From NCBI RefSeq assembly GCF_009389715.1, contig NC_052409.1, positions 908,001 through 972,000 of the forward strand: 64,000 bases of DNA, in the 5' to 3' direction. Positions 1,691 through 50,200 of the stretch are shown piece by piece. This DNA is from Phoenix dactylifera. Taxonomy: Eukaryota > Streptophyta > Magnoliopsida > Arecales > Arecaceae. Below the pieces are notes generated by a model. It was not told the origin of the DNA and did no database searches. It saw only the letters and a list, made by a program, of their open reading frames with translations. How positions within the stretch are numbered: the first letter of the stretch is position 1; every line of letters starts with the position of its first letter. The translations under genes and the position numbers were made by a program.

Positions 1691-1856
1691 AGCACTGTGA
1701 CTGTTGATGGGGGCAAAATGGATCGTCCTGCTCAGGATAGGGACCACCCTGTTCCGACCAAGTAGATCTCAGCGCCGACCAGGCTAGACCTCGATCCTAC
1801 TGAGAGCCAGTCCTACCTCGGACTTCGCCGAAGGCCAAGCCGACCTCGGCCAGATC

Positions 1857-3278
1857 TAGGGCTGTCAAGGGGCCGAGCTACTCGGGCTCGGCTCGGGCCC
1901 GGCTCGGTAAAAGCCCGGCTCGGGCTCGGCTCGTTAGTCAAACGAGCCCGAGCCCGAGCCTAAAATGAGGCCCGTTTAAATCCGAGCCCGAGCCCGAGCC
2001 CGAGCTCGAGCCCGAGCAGCTCACGAGCCCAAACGAGCCCAAATGAGGGCTCAGCCCAATTAACAATTTAATTGGGTCCCAATTAAATTTGGACTCAACC
2101 CAATTAAATTTTATTTGGCTCAATCAATTTCAATCCTAATCTAATTGAACCCAGTTGGATTTAGATCAGACCCAACCCGAGCTAACCCAAATCCTTAAAT
2201 CGAATTGAATTGATTCGGATTCGGACTCAACCCATTAACCGAACCCAACCCGTTAATCCATTTTTAATTTCTTTAATTTCTTTCTTCTCGGTTTCTCCAG
2301 AACATTCCCTAGCCCTAGCCCTCCTTTCTTCTCCGTTCTCCTCGCCGGCTCGCCCCCAAGCTCGAAGCCGATGCCCCCTCCCCTCCGACGACGATGACGA
2401 CGCCGTACACTCGATCCAGCTCTCCGAGAAGCTTCGTCGCAACCTCCTCTCCCTTCTCCGCCCCCGATGCCGTCGCCCCCGGCGGGGAAGGCAACAAGCG
2501 TGAAGCGCCGCCGCCCCATCCGACCGTTTCTGCATCGAGGTCCCTCCAAGTCCGCCTCCGGACGGGCCCTCCAGGCGCCGCGGACCCTTCTGCAGCGGTT
2601 GGCGTGGATGGTACTATCGCTCCTCCTCCGGCGGCAGGCCATCTTCCTCTTCGCGCCGCTCCTGTACGTCGCCGGGATGCTCTTCTATATGGGCACCGTC
2701 TCCCTCGAGGGCGTTCCCCGCATCATCTCCCGCCCCGCTCCTGGCTCCATCTACCGGAGCCCCCAGCTGTACCAGCGCCTCCGCCCCGATATGGACTCTG
2801 ATAACTCTTCCGATGCGGTCAGTTCTTGAACCCACCCCCTTCTTTAAAGAATCCCTCTGGATCTGCTCTTTCTTGTATTTTCTGGCGCTTCGATTTCTCT
2901 CTGAGGGCGCTCAGATGGACTTTAGTTTCTGACAGCGCCTGCGGTCGACCCGCGGCCGACGCCCGTGCCGGTGGTGCTCGCGGCCGCCCCCTTCTTTCTT
3001 CTCTTCTTTCTTTTTTTATTTATTTCCTTCGTTCTTCTCTCCTCCCGTCCTCTGATGAATGAGAGATGGGGCGCCGGCCGCCGGGGCAGGCTCGGGCTCG
3101 GGCAAACGAGCCTCACGAGCTCGAGCCCGAGCCGGGGCTGTGCTAGGCGAGCCCGAGCCCAAGCCCAGTACAGGGCTCGGTACCGAGCCCGAGCCCGAGC
3201 CCGAGCCTAGATTTTTATGGAACGAGCCGAGCCGAGCCTGCTGTGGCTCGGGCTCGGCTCGGCTCGTTGACAGCCCTA
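1857..3278. mobile_element. Non-autonomous hAT element carrying a host gene exon
   Basis: The termini are perfect 12-bp inverted repeats, TAGGGCTGTCAA at 1857-1868 and TTGACAGCCCTA at 3267-3278. They are flanked by an identical 8-bp duplication, GCCAGATC, at 1849-1856 and 3279-3286; an 8-bp target duplication is the hAT signature. Both subterminal regions (about 1869-2040 and 3085-3266) are dense arrays of GAGCCC and GAGCCGAGCC. The interior (about 2150-3080) is not transposon sequence: it holds a 5' untranslated region and first exon of an O-fucosyltransferase gene, listed separately. No transposase is present, so movement would need a hAT transposase supplied from elsewhere. The element sits inside an older LTR-like sequence. 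Confidence 0.85.
2467..2817 (+). pseudogene. Captured first exon of an O-fucosyltransferase family gene
   Basis: The exon reads from ATG 2467 to a GT donor at 2818 (about 117 codons). It encodes a basic N-terminus (KRRRPIRPF), a signal-anchor helix (RRQAIFLFAPLLYVAGMLFY) and a stem ending in PGSIYRSPQLYQRLRPDMDS. From family knowledge this is the cytosolic tail, anchor and stem of plant GT106/O-FucT Golgi proteins. The next exon of such genes begins the GDP-fucose-binding catalytic domain; none was found downstream in this window. The exon lies wholly inside the hAT element at 1857-3278, so it is a transduplicated fragment and not a gene. If transcribed it could only give a membrane anchor without catalytic domain. 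Family assignment rests on recognised motifs, not a search. Confidence 0.7.
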
Positions 3279-3843
3279 GCCAGATCTCTTCGCTTCTACG
3301 ACCTGCAGCAACCTCCTCTGGAGTTTACAACGACGACCGCCCCGGCCAAATTCGGGGTGCCCTATGCGATGATGCGTCCCGTCCCAACCTCGGGGCGCCC
3401 TGCTGAGCAGACCTCCAAGTCAAGGAGGCTAGGCCGATCTCAGAACCCGCCAAGCTGACCTCACCGCATATTTATCGTGGCCCCCATGTCGGCCCGACCT
3501 CGGTGCCCTGCCAAGTGGGCAAGGCCGACCTCGGCCCTCGCCAAAGGCTGAGCTAATCTCACCCAGTACAAGCTGTGGCCATACCTTACGACAACCTCAC
3601 CGCACCATGCTTCGCTTGATGGCCACGTCAATATACGTCAACAAAAGGCTATGCCTTGCTGGCTCAGCCATGCCTACTGACAAGGGTCATACCCTGCAGC
3701 ACGTGCTAGCGCCATACTGTGCGCAGAGACAGCCAAACCGTGTGCCTCAAGTAAGCCGTGGTCGCGCGCCATCTAACCAGCATCATCTTCTCCCATGATG
3801 AGGATGGGCCATATCTCCGCCACCTGAGCATCTCTGTGAGAAT

Positions 3844-24690: not shown

Positions 24691-24734
24691 TATCCATGAA
24701 GGATGTTTCGGCTATTGAATCAGCAGCTAAGTTA

Positions 24735-25085
24735 TGATCCTAAATGAGATCATCACTTAGTTATGTGGTCCACGTTTTTCTTTTTTTTAATGCTTCTTTC
24801 ACAATAGTTAATTCAGGAGTCTAAGGTATGATGCTAAATGAGATCATCACTTGGTTATGTGGTCCACGTTTTTTTTTTTTAATGCTTCTTTCGCAATAGT
24901 TAATTCAGGAGTCTAAGGTATGATGCTAAATGAGATCATAACTTAGTTAGGTCGTCCTCGTTTTTTTTTCAATGCTTCTTTCACAATAGTTAATTCAGGA
25001 GTCTAAGGTATGATGCTAAATGAGATCATAACTTAGTTAGGTCGTCCTCGATTTTTTTTTTAATGCTTCTTTCACAATAGTTAAC
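24735..25085 (+). repeat. Tandem repeat of about 92 bp, nearly four units
   Basis: The unit contains TTAATGCTTCTTTCACAATA, GTTAATTCAGGAGTCTAAGG and ATGATGCTAAATGAGATCAT and ends in a T-run after GGTCCACG or GTCGTCCTCG. It derives from the edge of the ADH intron 2 sequence at 16310-16350, which follows in longer form at 25065-25235. Confidence 0.8.
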
Positions 25086-47024: not shown

Positions 47025-48449
47025 CTAAAAGAATTCCTTACCAATATTTCTCCTGGGTCTTCTCTCACTGGTAGAAGTCCTCTTCCTAACATAAGAGCTA
47101 TTCCAGTCCCCTCCATCCTGAGCATAATAATCCATCGCATAATCTGTTTCTTTACCATAACTATTGCACTTGCAGCCACAGGATCCACCCTCGCAACCAC
47201 CAGATATCGAACAGCTCTCCTCCTTCTTTGCCATGCGTCCACAGTTAGAATTCTTTGGTTCTGTCCTCCTGTCATTCTCCCACCAACCGGGAACATACCC
47301 CAGAGCAATCTCCAGCTCAAATGTCGTCAGAAGTGGCCTTGGGAACCCCTCCCCCCAGTCAATGGAAAGCCGAGGGCAAGCAATCTGCACCCATGCATCG
47401 ACCGAGTCCCCGAACAAAGCAATCCTCCCCGGTGTAATTTCCGACATCAGCACCACTGAATATTCCAGCCCCTTCTCCTCCATGTGCTCCACCACTCTGT
47501 CCAAAACCCTAGTATTCCCCTGTCTGCCTAGAGTCCCAAGAATAACACCCCAATTTCTGGCCTCCCTGGCTGCCAGTATCGCATCTTTCCTCGCCTTCTT
47601 CATTCCCTCATGGTCATACTGTTCCAAGACGAGCACGCCGAGGTAGGGATCGTACCGGAAAGCCCGGATCCCCGGATTGGCGATCATGAACGCCTCGAGA
47701 TGGAACCGACCGTCTGCGACGAAGACGAGATCCTCCATCCCCCTGCTCTTGGGGATCGTAGGGGCCGTGCACCCGAGGACCTCCCCGGCGGAGAGCGGCT
47801 TAGCCTGGGGGACGGTGATGTCATACCCCTCGGAGGACAGGATCGATTTGGCGGCGTGGACGGCGGCAACGAACTGGACGGTGCCGGCGAGGGCCAGTTT
47901 AGAAGATGGGGGGAAGGCGGAGCGGACGGCAGCGGCGAGGCGTTGAACATCGATGCGGATGTCGACGAAGACGTAGTGGGTGGGGAGGCGGGCGGAGGGG
48001 ACGGGGACAAGGCAGGAGTGGCCGTAGTGAACGAGGAGGTCGGCTTGGAGAGCGGAGGCGGCGAAGTCGTCGAGGCAGCAGGCGCCGTAGGTGGGGTCGG
48101 CGAGGACGAGGATGTCTTCGGCGGCGGCGGAGGAGGAGCGGAGGATGTCGGCGAGGGGGAGGGCGTACATAAGGAGGCCGTCGGGGAGCTGGAGGACGAC
48201 GCGGCGGGCGGCGGAAGAGACGACGCGGTGGACGGTCTTGTGGATCTCGAAGTCGTAGTTGGAGGGGAGGAGGGCGGCGGCGGCGTTGAGCGCTGGGTCC
48301 GACAGGATCTCCAACGGGATCTGGCTCTTCACGAACCGCTTCGGGGCTGGCTTCTTCTTCGTCGTCGGCTTCTCGCCGCCATCGTCGGATTTAGGGCTAG
48401 GGTTTGGACGAGCGGAGAGAGGCAGGTTCGAATTGCTGACGTCCGCCAT
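47025..48449 (-). CDS. DPH1: Diphthamide biosynthesis protein 1 (radical ACP-transferase subunit)
   Basis: An uninterrupted frame of 474 codons. DPH1 with DPH2 forms the [4Fe-4S] enzyme that transfers a 3-amino-3-carboxypropyl group from S-adenosylmethionine to a histidine of elongation factor 2, the first step of diphthamide synthesis in the cytosol. The cluster cysteines are visible: Cys124 in DPTYGACCLDD, Cys227 in GEVLGCTAP and Cys358 in VQIACPRLSIDWGEGF. Other family landmarks are VLQLPDGLLMYALPLADIL and RYDPYLGVL. The first 40 residues are a low-complexity basic leader. A cysteine-rich tail (six Cys between 403 and 428) follows the last domain. The start MADVSNSN is the first ATG of the frame. 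The 5' half is very GC-rich on the coding strand. A possible donor (TTGGTAAGG) lies near the end, so the last residues could be spliced differently. Confidence 0.95.
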   Translation of the reverse strand: MADVSNSNLPLSARPNPSPKSDDGGEKPTTKKKPAPKRFVKSQIPLEILSDPALNAAAALLPSNYDFEIHKTVHRVVSSAARRVVLQLPDGLLMYALPLADILRSSSAAAEDILVLADPTYGACCLDDFAASALQADLLVHYGHSCLVPVPSARLPTHYVFVDIRIDVQRLAAAVRSAFPPSSKLALAGTVQFVAAVHAAKSILSSEGYDITVPQAKPLSAGEVLGCTAPTIPKSRGMEDLVFVADGRFHLEAFMIANPGIRAFRYDPYLGVLVLEQYDHEGMKKARKDAILAAREARNWGVILGTLGRQGNTRVLDRVVEHMEEKGLEYSVVLMSEITPGRIALFGDSVDAWVQIACPRLSIDWGEGFPRPLLTTFELEIALGYVPGWWENDRRTEPKNSNCGRMAKKEESCSISGGCEGGSCGCKCNSYGKETDYAMDYYAQDGGDWNSSYVRKRTSTSERRPRRNIGKEFF

Positions 48450-48588
48450 ATGCGCTGCTCGATTCAGCTGCAGGTTTTTGAAGGGAGTTTATTCAAGCTT
48501 CTGAAGGCGTTTGAGGAAGTGAGCATCTTTAATCCAACCGATCTACAATATGATTCGTCATTTATTATTAAAAACACAGTTTTCAGAT

Positions 48589-48593
48589 GCGGG

Positions 48594-48636
<43 letters not shown>

Positions 48637-48661
48637 GCGTGTTCGATCCACGCTCACCGCA
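48589..48661 (+). tRNA. trnF-GAA: tRNA-Phe (GAA)
   Basis: A 73-nt cloverleaf starting GCGGGGATAGCTCAGTTGG, with anticodon GAA at 48622-48624, a five-pair anticodon stem (TCAGA/TCTGA) and T-arm GCGTG-TTCGATC-CACGC. It ends at position 73 with A and has no encoded CCA and no intron. The acceptor stem has a G5-A68 mismatch, which I recall as normal for plant cytosolic tRNA-Phe. A-box and B-box promoters are internal. The downstream sequence is A/T-rich, but a clear T-run terminator within 20 bases is not obvious. It lies 140 bp from the DPH1 start, in the opposite direction. Confidence 0.97.
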
Positions 48662-50200
48662 ATAATTTAAAATTTTATCAATTAATTATATTCAAATTTT
48701 AAATTAAATTTCAAATTGTAAATGAGTGATTTTTGAATCTTACTTCTGACTAATCTAACATGTTTAACTAAATTATTTTGGAGCAATTTTCTATACCAAT
48801 AATAATCTTTTCAAAACTAAGATGCGTAGACTAAAATGATGTGTAGCATTAACAACAATCGATTGTTTTAAGCTTTTGTATGGAATGGCATTTTTGACAT
48901 AAAGTATTTTCTGATACATTGACTACTAAATTTTTTTCTGCACAATTAAAAGTATTATGGTTACGATCAAACAAATAAATGAAATTGCTCCATAGCTATC
49001 TCGGATAGATCGATAATTTAAGTAACTATGATCGGCTAAGTAGATGATGCCGGTTTGCATGATTATGAAGTGCACTGGGATGTAAGGTTGCATGCTTTTA
49101 TGCATCATGCTAAAACATGTTACTCATGTTTTAAAATCCAACTCGAGTTGGTTCCATATTCAGTGTATGTGCTATTATCATTAATCCCTATAATATATAT
49201 TTTTTTCTATACTAATTCAACCTAAACTGGGTTGCTGCATTCTGGTTTGAACACAACACAAGCTCAATGAGGATCTGTAGTATCTAAACCTATTTGATTG
49301 GAATTGGCCTAGATTCAATTATTCCATGCTATAGGCTTTTTTAAAAAAAATGGAAGGCCCGTTTAGGATTTTTCTGTGGACATGCATAATGCATTATGGT
49401 TGTACGAACTATGATTGTACCCTCACATTTGTATTGTTCATAATTTTTGCAAGGTTTTTGAGTTTTTTTACTCTTTTCCCAGATTCACGATATAGATTTG
49501 AGAACCTGATTGAATGCGTGTTTTTCCTTAAAGCATTATTTACATTTCATGATTTTGCAATTCTATTTACCCATGTTAAATAGCCACCAATACATGATGA
49601 GAGCAATGGCAAATATATCATATTATAACAATGGTCTAACTGTTCATGCACAATATGCTGTGGCCAGTGACAATATCCACAACTAGATTGAGACTCAATT
49701 ACAAAATGAAATTTTTCAAGTTCATAATTTCCTCGCATGGTGTCTTTTTCAAACATGTTAGGCAAATGAAGCTTTGCTCTAGGGGTACGACTGCTCCTCA
49801 GAGTTTGTCGTACCTCGTCGATAGAAGGGTTTTTTGATATTTTGCATTTGAAACAGAATCAAAGGGAATTTCTTTCCCTTTGGAGGGTGATAATACTTTG
49901 ACCATATCATCCAATCCAAAAGGAAATAGATGATATAATAGTAGAAAATGTTGATGTAAGTGTTGATATTTAACCTCTTTAATATAATTTCTTTCTCTAT
50001 TCTCTATATTGACACTTGACAGGATCAAGTAGTAGACTAGTGGGTAGTAGAGAGGTGCCCCCTTGTTCAAACCTCTTTCTTTTGATCATGGCCTAATCGC
50101 ATGGTGGCATAAGAATTTGATCCGAACTCGCTTTTAATGGAAAGAAATGGGCCCGTACCAACTCAATCAATTGACTCGATATGCTCGCCATGAGCGTCTC
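48662..50200. other. Intergenic region, no gene recognised
   Basis: AT-rich, with short scattered frames only. No repeats of the left region were recognised. Confidence 0.5.

Follow-up and report, generated by a model that had tools for sequence, protein, structure and literature searches.

Does the transposable element in this stretch of Phoenix dactylifera DNA carry a captured piece of an O-fucosyltransferase (O-FucT) gene and, if so, which part was taken, from where and by what route? The stretch, hereafter the window, comprises 64,000 nucleotides (contig C18:908001-972000). How cut-and-paste transposons gain gene pieces is still debated, the two proposals being fusion of neighbouring insertions and repair with template switching.

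The element, its insertion site and its family

A hAT-type element of 1422 bp with perfect 12-bp termini and a perfect 8-bp duplication, as described in the original prediction, was found again at positions 1857-3278 of the window (Table 1). Its terminal inverted repeats (TIRs; TAGGGCTGTCAA and TTGACAGCCCTA) and its target site duplication (TSD; GCCAGATC) are directly observed, and short TIRs combined with an 8-bp TSD assign the element to the hAT type. GAGCCC/GGGCTC motifs cluster subterminally at both ends (element positions 28-191 and 1238-1394), and a single extra motif lies at 901; these are the arrays that the original prediction put forward as possible transposase-binding sites. No open reading frame (ORF) longer than 135 aa within the element appears in the ORF list, and the 120-aa ORF gave no match in a search against Pfam and NCBIfam profiles, indicating an element without a transposase of its own.

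The insertion can be followed in related sites that lack it. Eleven repeat loci share part of the left flank, and at ten of them the joined flanks align without an insert; at the eleventh (L051), the joined flanks gave no alignment at E 1e-5. Six of the ten empty sites hold a single exact copy of the 8-bp target, three hold it with one or two mismatches, and one has a 16-bp deletion. Uninterrupted copies of the repeat thus contain the target once, showing that the duplication was made by the insertion and is not ancestral.

Table 1. Features of the element and its borders, in window positions
Feature	Position	Strand	Remark
TSD, left copy, GCCAGATC	1849..1856	.	single copy in related empty sites
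Left 12-bp TIR, TAGGGCTGTCAA	1857..1868	+	
GAGCCC/GGGCTC motif array, left subterminal	1884..2052	+	common to exon-less sisters
Older GC-rich inner element segment, including ATG at 2467	2282..2542	+	in sisters without the exon
Chimeric ORF, 120 codons	2467..2829	+	open in 6/6 carriers
Captured part of O-FucT exon 1, 275 bp	2543..2817	+	match to parent gene
Captured splice donor and first 112 bp of O-FucT intron 1	2818..2929	+	match to parent gene
Filler TGA, 3 bp, right capture joint	2930..2932	+	joint comparison with sisters
GAGCCC/GGGCTC motif array, right subterminal	3094..3255	+	
Right 12-bp TIR, TTGACAGCCCTA	3267..3278	+	
TSD, right copy, GCCAGATC	3279..3286	.	

Elsewhere in the window, an ORF of 486-487 aa on the minus strand (47025-48488) matches Diphthamide_syn (PF01866, E 1.4e-103) and is adjoined by a tRNA-Phe (GAA) gene at 48588-48662. 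Four 90-bp tandem units with 93% matches lie at 24720-25084.

Relatives of the element were sought in the genome (773,078,369 bases in 2391 contigs), where 40 of 702 first-look candidates were scored. These comprise 38 family members, all of which were retrieved, together with a parent gene and its paralogue. Both ends could be located in 37 members, the left end of L040 being the one not found. The TSD is a perfect 8-bp duplication in 32 of the 37 and carries one mismatch in four; L017 has none. Five duplicate pairs share their flanks, leaving 32 separate places among the 37. In these pairs (L013/L014, L019/L020, L026/L033, L031/L032 and L035/L036) the TSDs are identical and the flanks 97-100% alike, and they represent either segmental duplications or unmerged assembly haplotypes. 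The family is larger than the 38-member sample: a 21-base terminus pattern has 267 forward and 259 reverse matches in the genome (526), and the reversed control pattern has none in either direction.

Six of the 38 members carry the O-FucT exon piece, namely the window copy (L001) and L002-L006, and both kinds of sister elements that the original prediction proposed to look for, with the exon and without it (L030, L042 and L011), are therefore present. The six carriers have perfect TSDs, all different, and likeness between their flanks is limited to L003/L004 (79% over 100 bp). They are six insertions that form one clade in the tree (support 95/92), with L012 as the closest sister at a fork supported by 99/95. 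A locus beside L003 (L062) looks rDNA-like by eye and gave no Rfam match at the gathering score.

The captured piece and its parent gene

The gene-derived part of the element is confined to 387 bp (window 2543-2929). Exon 1 contributes 275 bp of these and intron 1, which opens with the splice donor (GT at 2818-2819), the other 112 bp; exon edge and donor are taken from the sequence and not from annotation. A genome search with this piece returned eight places, all eight candidates being scored: the six carriers, a parent gene and a paralogue on C12 at 89%. The parental piece (C3:22792072-22792458) is identical over its 387 bp to the window copy and to L002-L004, and differs by one mismatch from L005 and by two from L006. 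After its exons had been read from translated frames and joined by hand, the C3 gene proved to be a full-length O-FucT gene, matching PF10250 over positions 1-326 of 326 (E 1.1e-103). The parental gene that was to be found for comparison of exon and intron is thus located, and the element carries part of a host gene that can be traced to its source, as expected of a Pack-hAT.

The direction of transfer can be read from the paralogue. It aligns with the parent through the 5' untranslated region (5'UTR), ATG, exon 1 and intron 1, indicating that the sequence passed from the gene to the element. The presence of intron sequence in the piece further indicates that DNA, not mRNA, was copied.

The original prediction held that the 5'UTR and start codon had been captured as well, and here the alignment with the parent leads to a different outcome. 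The captured piece starts 97 bp downstream of the parental ATG and does not contain it, so that a piece including the parental 5'UTR and ATG is ruled out. The ATG at 2467 belongs to the element, since the exon-less sisters L030 and L042 have it as well, and the entire segment at about 2282-2542 is likewise present in sisters without the exon. What does hold of the predicted exon capture is the exon 1 part, an anchor-like segment and the donor.

As a result of the capture, the element contains a chimeric ORF, in which its own ATG and about 25 codons are followed in frame by captured codons, running past the donor to a stop. In parental numbering, the captured codons reach to about residue 124, short of the O-FucT domain, which starts at residue 132. 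A search of the element ORF for PF10250 gave no match, so the locus holds no complete O-FucT domain; the parental exon 1 alone likewise had no Pfam match. The captured exon part hence includes a hydrophobic, anchor-like segment without a start codon and without any part of the O-FucT domain. Judged by eye, this hydrophobic stretch may be a signal anchor.

That the exon is native to this place and the element ends around it are accidental is hardly conceivable, as there are six copies with separate TSDs, empty sites and exon-less sisters, and a full-length parent gene and a paralogue lie elsewhere in the genome. A truncated native gene is ruled out by the same separate TSDs, empty sites and sisters.

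Capture joints and a second capture in a sister lineage

Comparison with the exon-less sisters and the parent gene allows the donor, the pre-capture form and both joints to be observed directly. Between AGGTC and CAGCGCC, the sisters L030, L042 and L011 have 68 bp, and the carriers have at this place the 387 bp followed by TGA. The left joint shows a microhomology of 2 bp (CC), a length of at least 2 bp being reached at about 0.19 of random joints, and the right joint displays the 3-bp filler TGA instead of microhomology. With a 2-bp left joint and a filler on the right, the O-FucT event alone does not prove template switching. Folding of the replaced 68 bp is modestly unusual relative to shuffled sequences (z -2.40, with 5 of 200 shuffles as good), giving a weak hint that this segment was a break-prone hairpin.

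The closest sister of the carriers offers a second case. In L012 (C89:122600-125900), a different gene piece of 350 bp is located at element positions 554-903, with two places on C15 matching it at 97% identity. By frame reading, it is a GC-rich exon 1 that lacks its ATG, followed by a donor and the first part of intron 1, and its orientation agrees with that of the piece in the carriers; the captured exon alone had no Pfam match. Its left joint has a microhomology of 6 bp (TCGCGG) and its right joint one of 3 bp (GCC), both lengths read by eye from the sequence; at least 6 bp would be found at about 0.004 and at least 3 bp at about 0.07 of random joints. The right joint adjoins an internal jump of the element sequence, which takes place at a shared GACG. 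This capture is independent of the O-FucT capture and comes from another gene. The two C15 source places (11592798-11593024, minus strand, and 10497788-10498014, plus strand) are in opposite orientation and about 1.1 Mb apart.

Two separate internal replacements, in the carriers and in L012, fit a synthesis that switches template during repair, and the joints favour copying during repair. The template-switch model put forward for animal Pack-TIRs fits the same pattern of internal replacement, as far as the available text of that work goes (PMC8277862). We therefore regard the element as very probably a non-autonomous Pack-hAT that acquired its O-FucT piece by gap-filling and then reached at least six sites with the help of a hAT transposase acting in trans. 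In the route we infer, an ancestral exon-less element would have been broken in its middle. Repair synthesis would then have switched to O-FucT exon 1/intron 1 on another contig and copied 387 bp, after which copying would have rejoined the element, with loss of the 68 bp and the TGA left as filler. Finally, a hAT transposase provided in trans would have dispersed the altered element.

Alternatively, the O-FucT exon could have become flanked by two insertions of the family, which then transposed together as a unit. Such fusion has been proposed for plant Pack-TYPE elements including hAT, and it predicts element copies beside the captured DNA, according to the accessible portion of PMC8903248. 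The captured piece sits within one element, where it replaces exactly 68 bp, and the alignment displays neither internal TIRs nor duplicated element sequence. Moreover, the 9901 bp around the parent exon match the element nowhere but in the captured piece. With the 68-bp replacement and no element copies round the parent exon, fusion of neighbours is very unlikely; tandem insertion with fusion, a proposed mechanism and not part of the definition, does not describe the present case.

A broader reading of the two captures would make the family a serial exon catcher. Its middle, where the replaced 68 bp can form hairpins, would be a break hotspot mended time and again with sense-oriented copies of GC-rich exon-1/intron-1 boundaries lacking the start codon, and the element's ATG would turn these into in-frame first exons spread to new loci. 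We consider this rather unlikely.

Dispersal, possible function and known systems

Private substitutions average 0.36% per carrier, indicating that dispersal of the captured piece was recent. At substitution rates of 2.6e-9 to 1.3e-8 per year, dispersal would date to about 0.3-1.4 million years ago. Three private substitutions fall inside the captured piece and 27 outside it (Fisher p 0.04), but the outside portion includes repeat arrays with alignment noise, and we do not conclude that purifying selection acts on the piece.

The mover was likely a hAT transposase acting in trans, to judge from relatives of the element. Siblings of the L028 type have both ends in common with the element, and their interior is shared with 24 other clusters; two further copies of this type, on C1920 and C1430, lie outside the 38 members examined. 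A Dimer_Tnp_hAT domain lies no more than 5 kb downstream, on the same strand, in at least 9 of the 24, against 0.0005 expected per place and about 0.01 for the whole set; 150 of 1658 candidates were scored in this domain search, and absence at the other 15 clusters means little. On C1, a locus of 3568 bp (30693401-30696968) starts and ends with oppositely oriented copies of the 21-base family terminus (30693401 on the plus and 30696968 on the minus strand). Between the termini, a 609-aa open frame contains PF05699 (Dimer_Tnp_hAT) at 30695686-30695946. By its coordinates, a relative with like ends thus encodes a hAT transposase domain; the terminus matches listed cover this one of the nine domain loci. 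The locus is a candidate autonomous relative.

At its new sites, the captured piece could act as an alternative first exon, giving chimeric transcripts with a Golgi-type anchor. The 120-codon ORF is open in all six carriers with the donor unchanged, and a gene-like SR-rich ORF follows the L004 copy on the same strand, about 1.3-1.4 kb downstream. However, the parental start codon is missing from the piece, in every carrier four other ATGs come before that of the ORF, and an open frame is expected in copies so young. The SR-like ORF downstream of L004, moreover, had no Pfam match above the cut-off. We therefore hold this reading to be unlikely as an account of the element; the captured piece is most likely passive cargo, and an exon-donating role is possible. 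The SR-dipeptide-rich ORF itself starts at about position 1373 of L063 (C7:2671200-2681100, plus strand) and resembles the start of a gene. In the 10-kb stretches downstream of the six carriers, several long open frames look retrotransposon-like by eye; the scan against profiles covered two ORFs.

The kind of element described here is already known, Pack-hATs having been published; a literature search largely outside subscription journals found no report on this particular family. The worth of the case lies in the coexistence of pre-capture element, donor gene and product in one genome, almost without later mutation, and in a sister lineage that shows a second, separate capture, with joints that can be read directly. 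It also demonstrates that, after taking up part of an exon together with its splice donor, a hAT element can still spread, here to at least six sites. Like Pack-MULEs, the element carries a gene fragment on a non-autonomous TIR transposon, and in Pack-MULEs such fragments are often GC-rich. Pack-MULEs belong to another superfamily; the TSD of MULEs measures 9 bp and the TSD here 8 bp.

The statement that gene capture is less often documented for hAT elements agrees with the description of capture in maize Ds2 and Ds-l4 as 'a rare feature' in the available part of PMC3260210; a later survey describes Pack-hATs of maize and rice and includes a maize insertion that gave a gene a new splice donor (PMC8903248, in the sections accessible). 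As in Ds2 and Ds-l4, a hAT element here holds an intron-containing gene fragment from another chromosome, with the difference that one capture has dispersed to six sites (compared with PMC3260210 in excerpt). The Pack-hATs of maize and rice, as presented in the available sections of PMC8903248, share with it a non-autonomous hAT structure, the 8-bp TSD, an inner gene fragment and clusters with and without the fragment. Unlike the fusion favoured there, 68 bp were replaced inside one element, and the genome still contains both a sister in pre-capture form and a donor identical to the fragment. A parallel in joint structure is found in the gap-filling and FoSTeST models for animal Pack-TIRs, where the accessible text of PMC8277862 describes inner captures with short microhomology (a reported median of 2 bp) and extra bases at a joint in one case. 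The present family differs from those animal elements in being a plant hAT and in showing a separate capture in each of two sister lineages.
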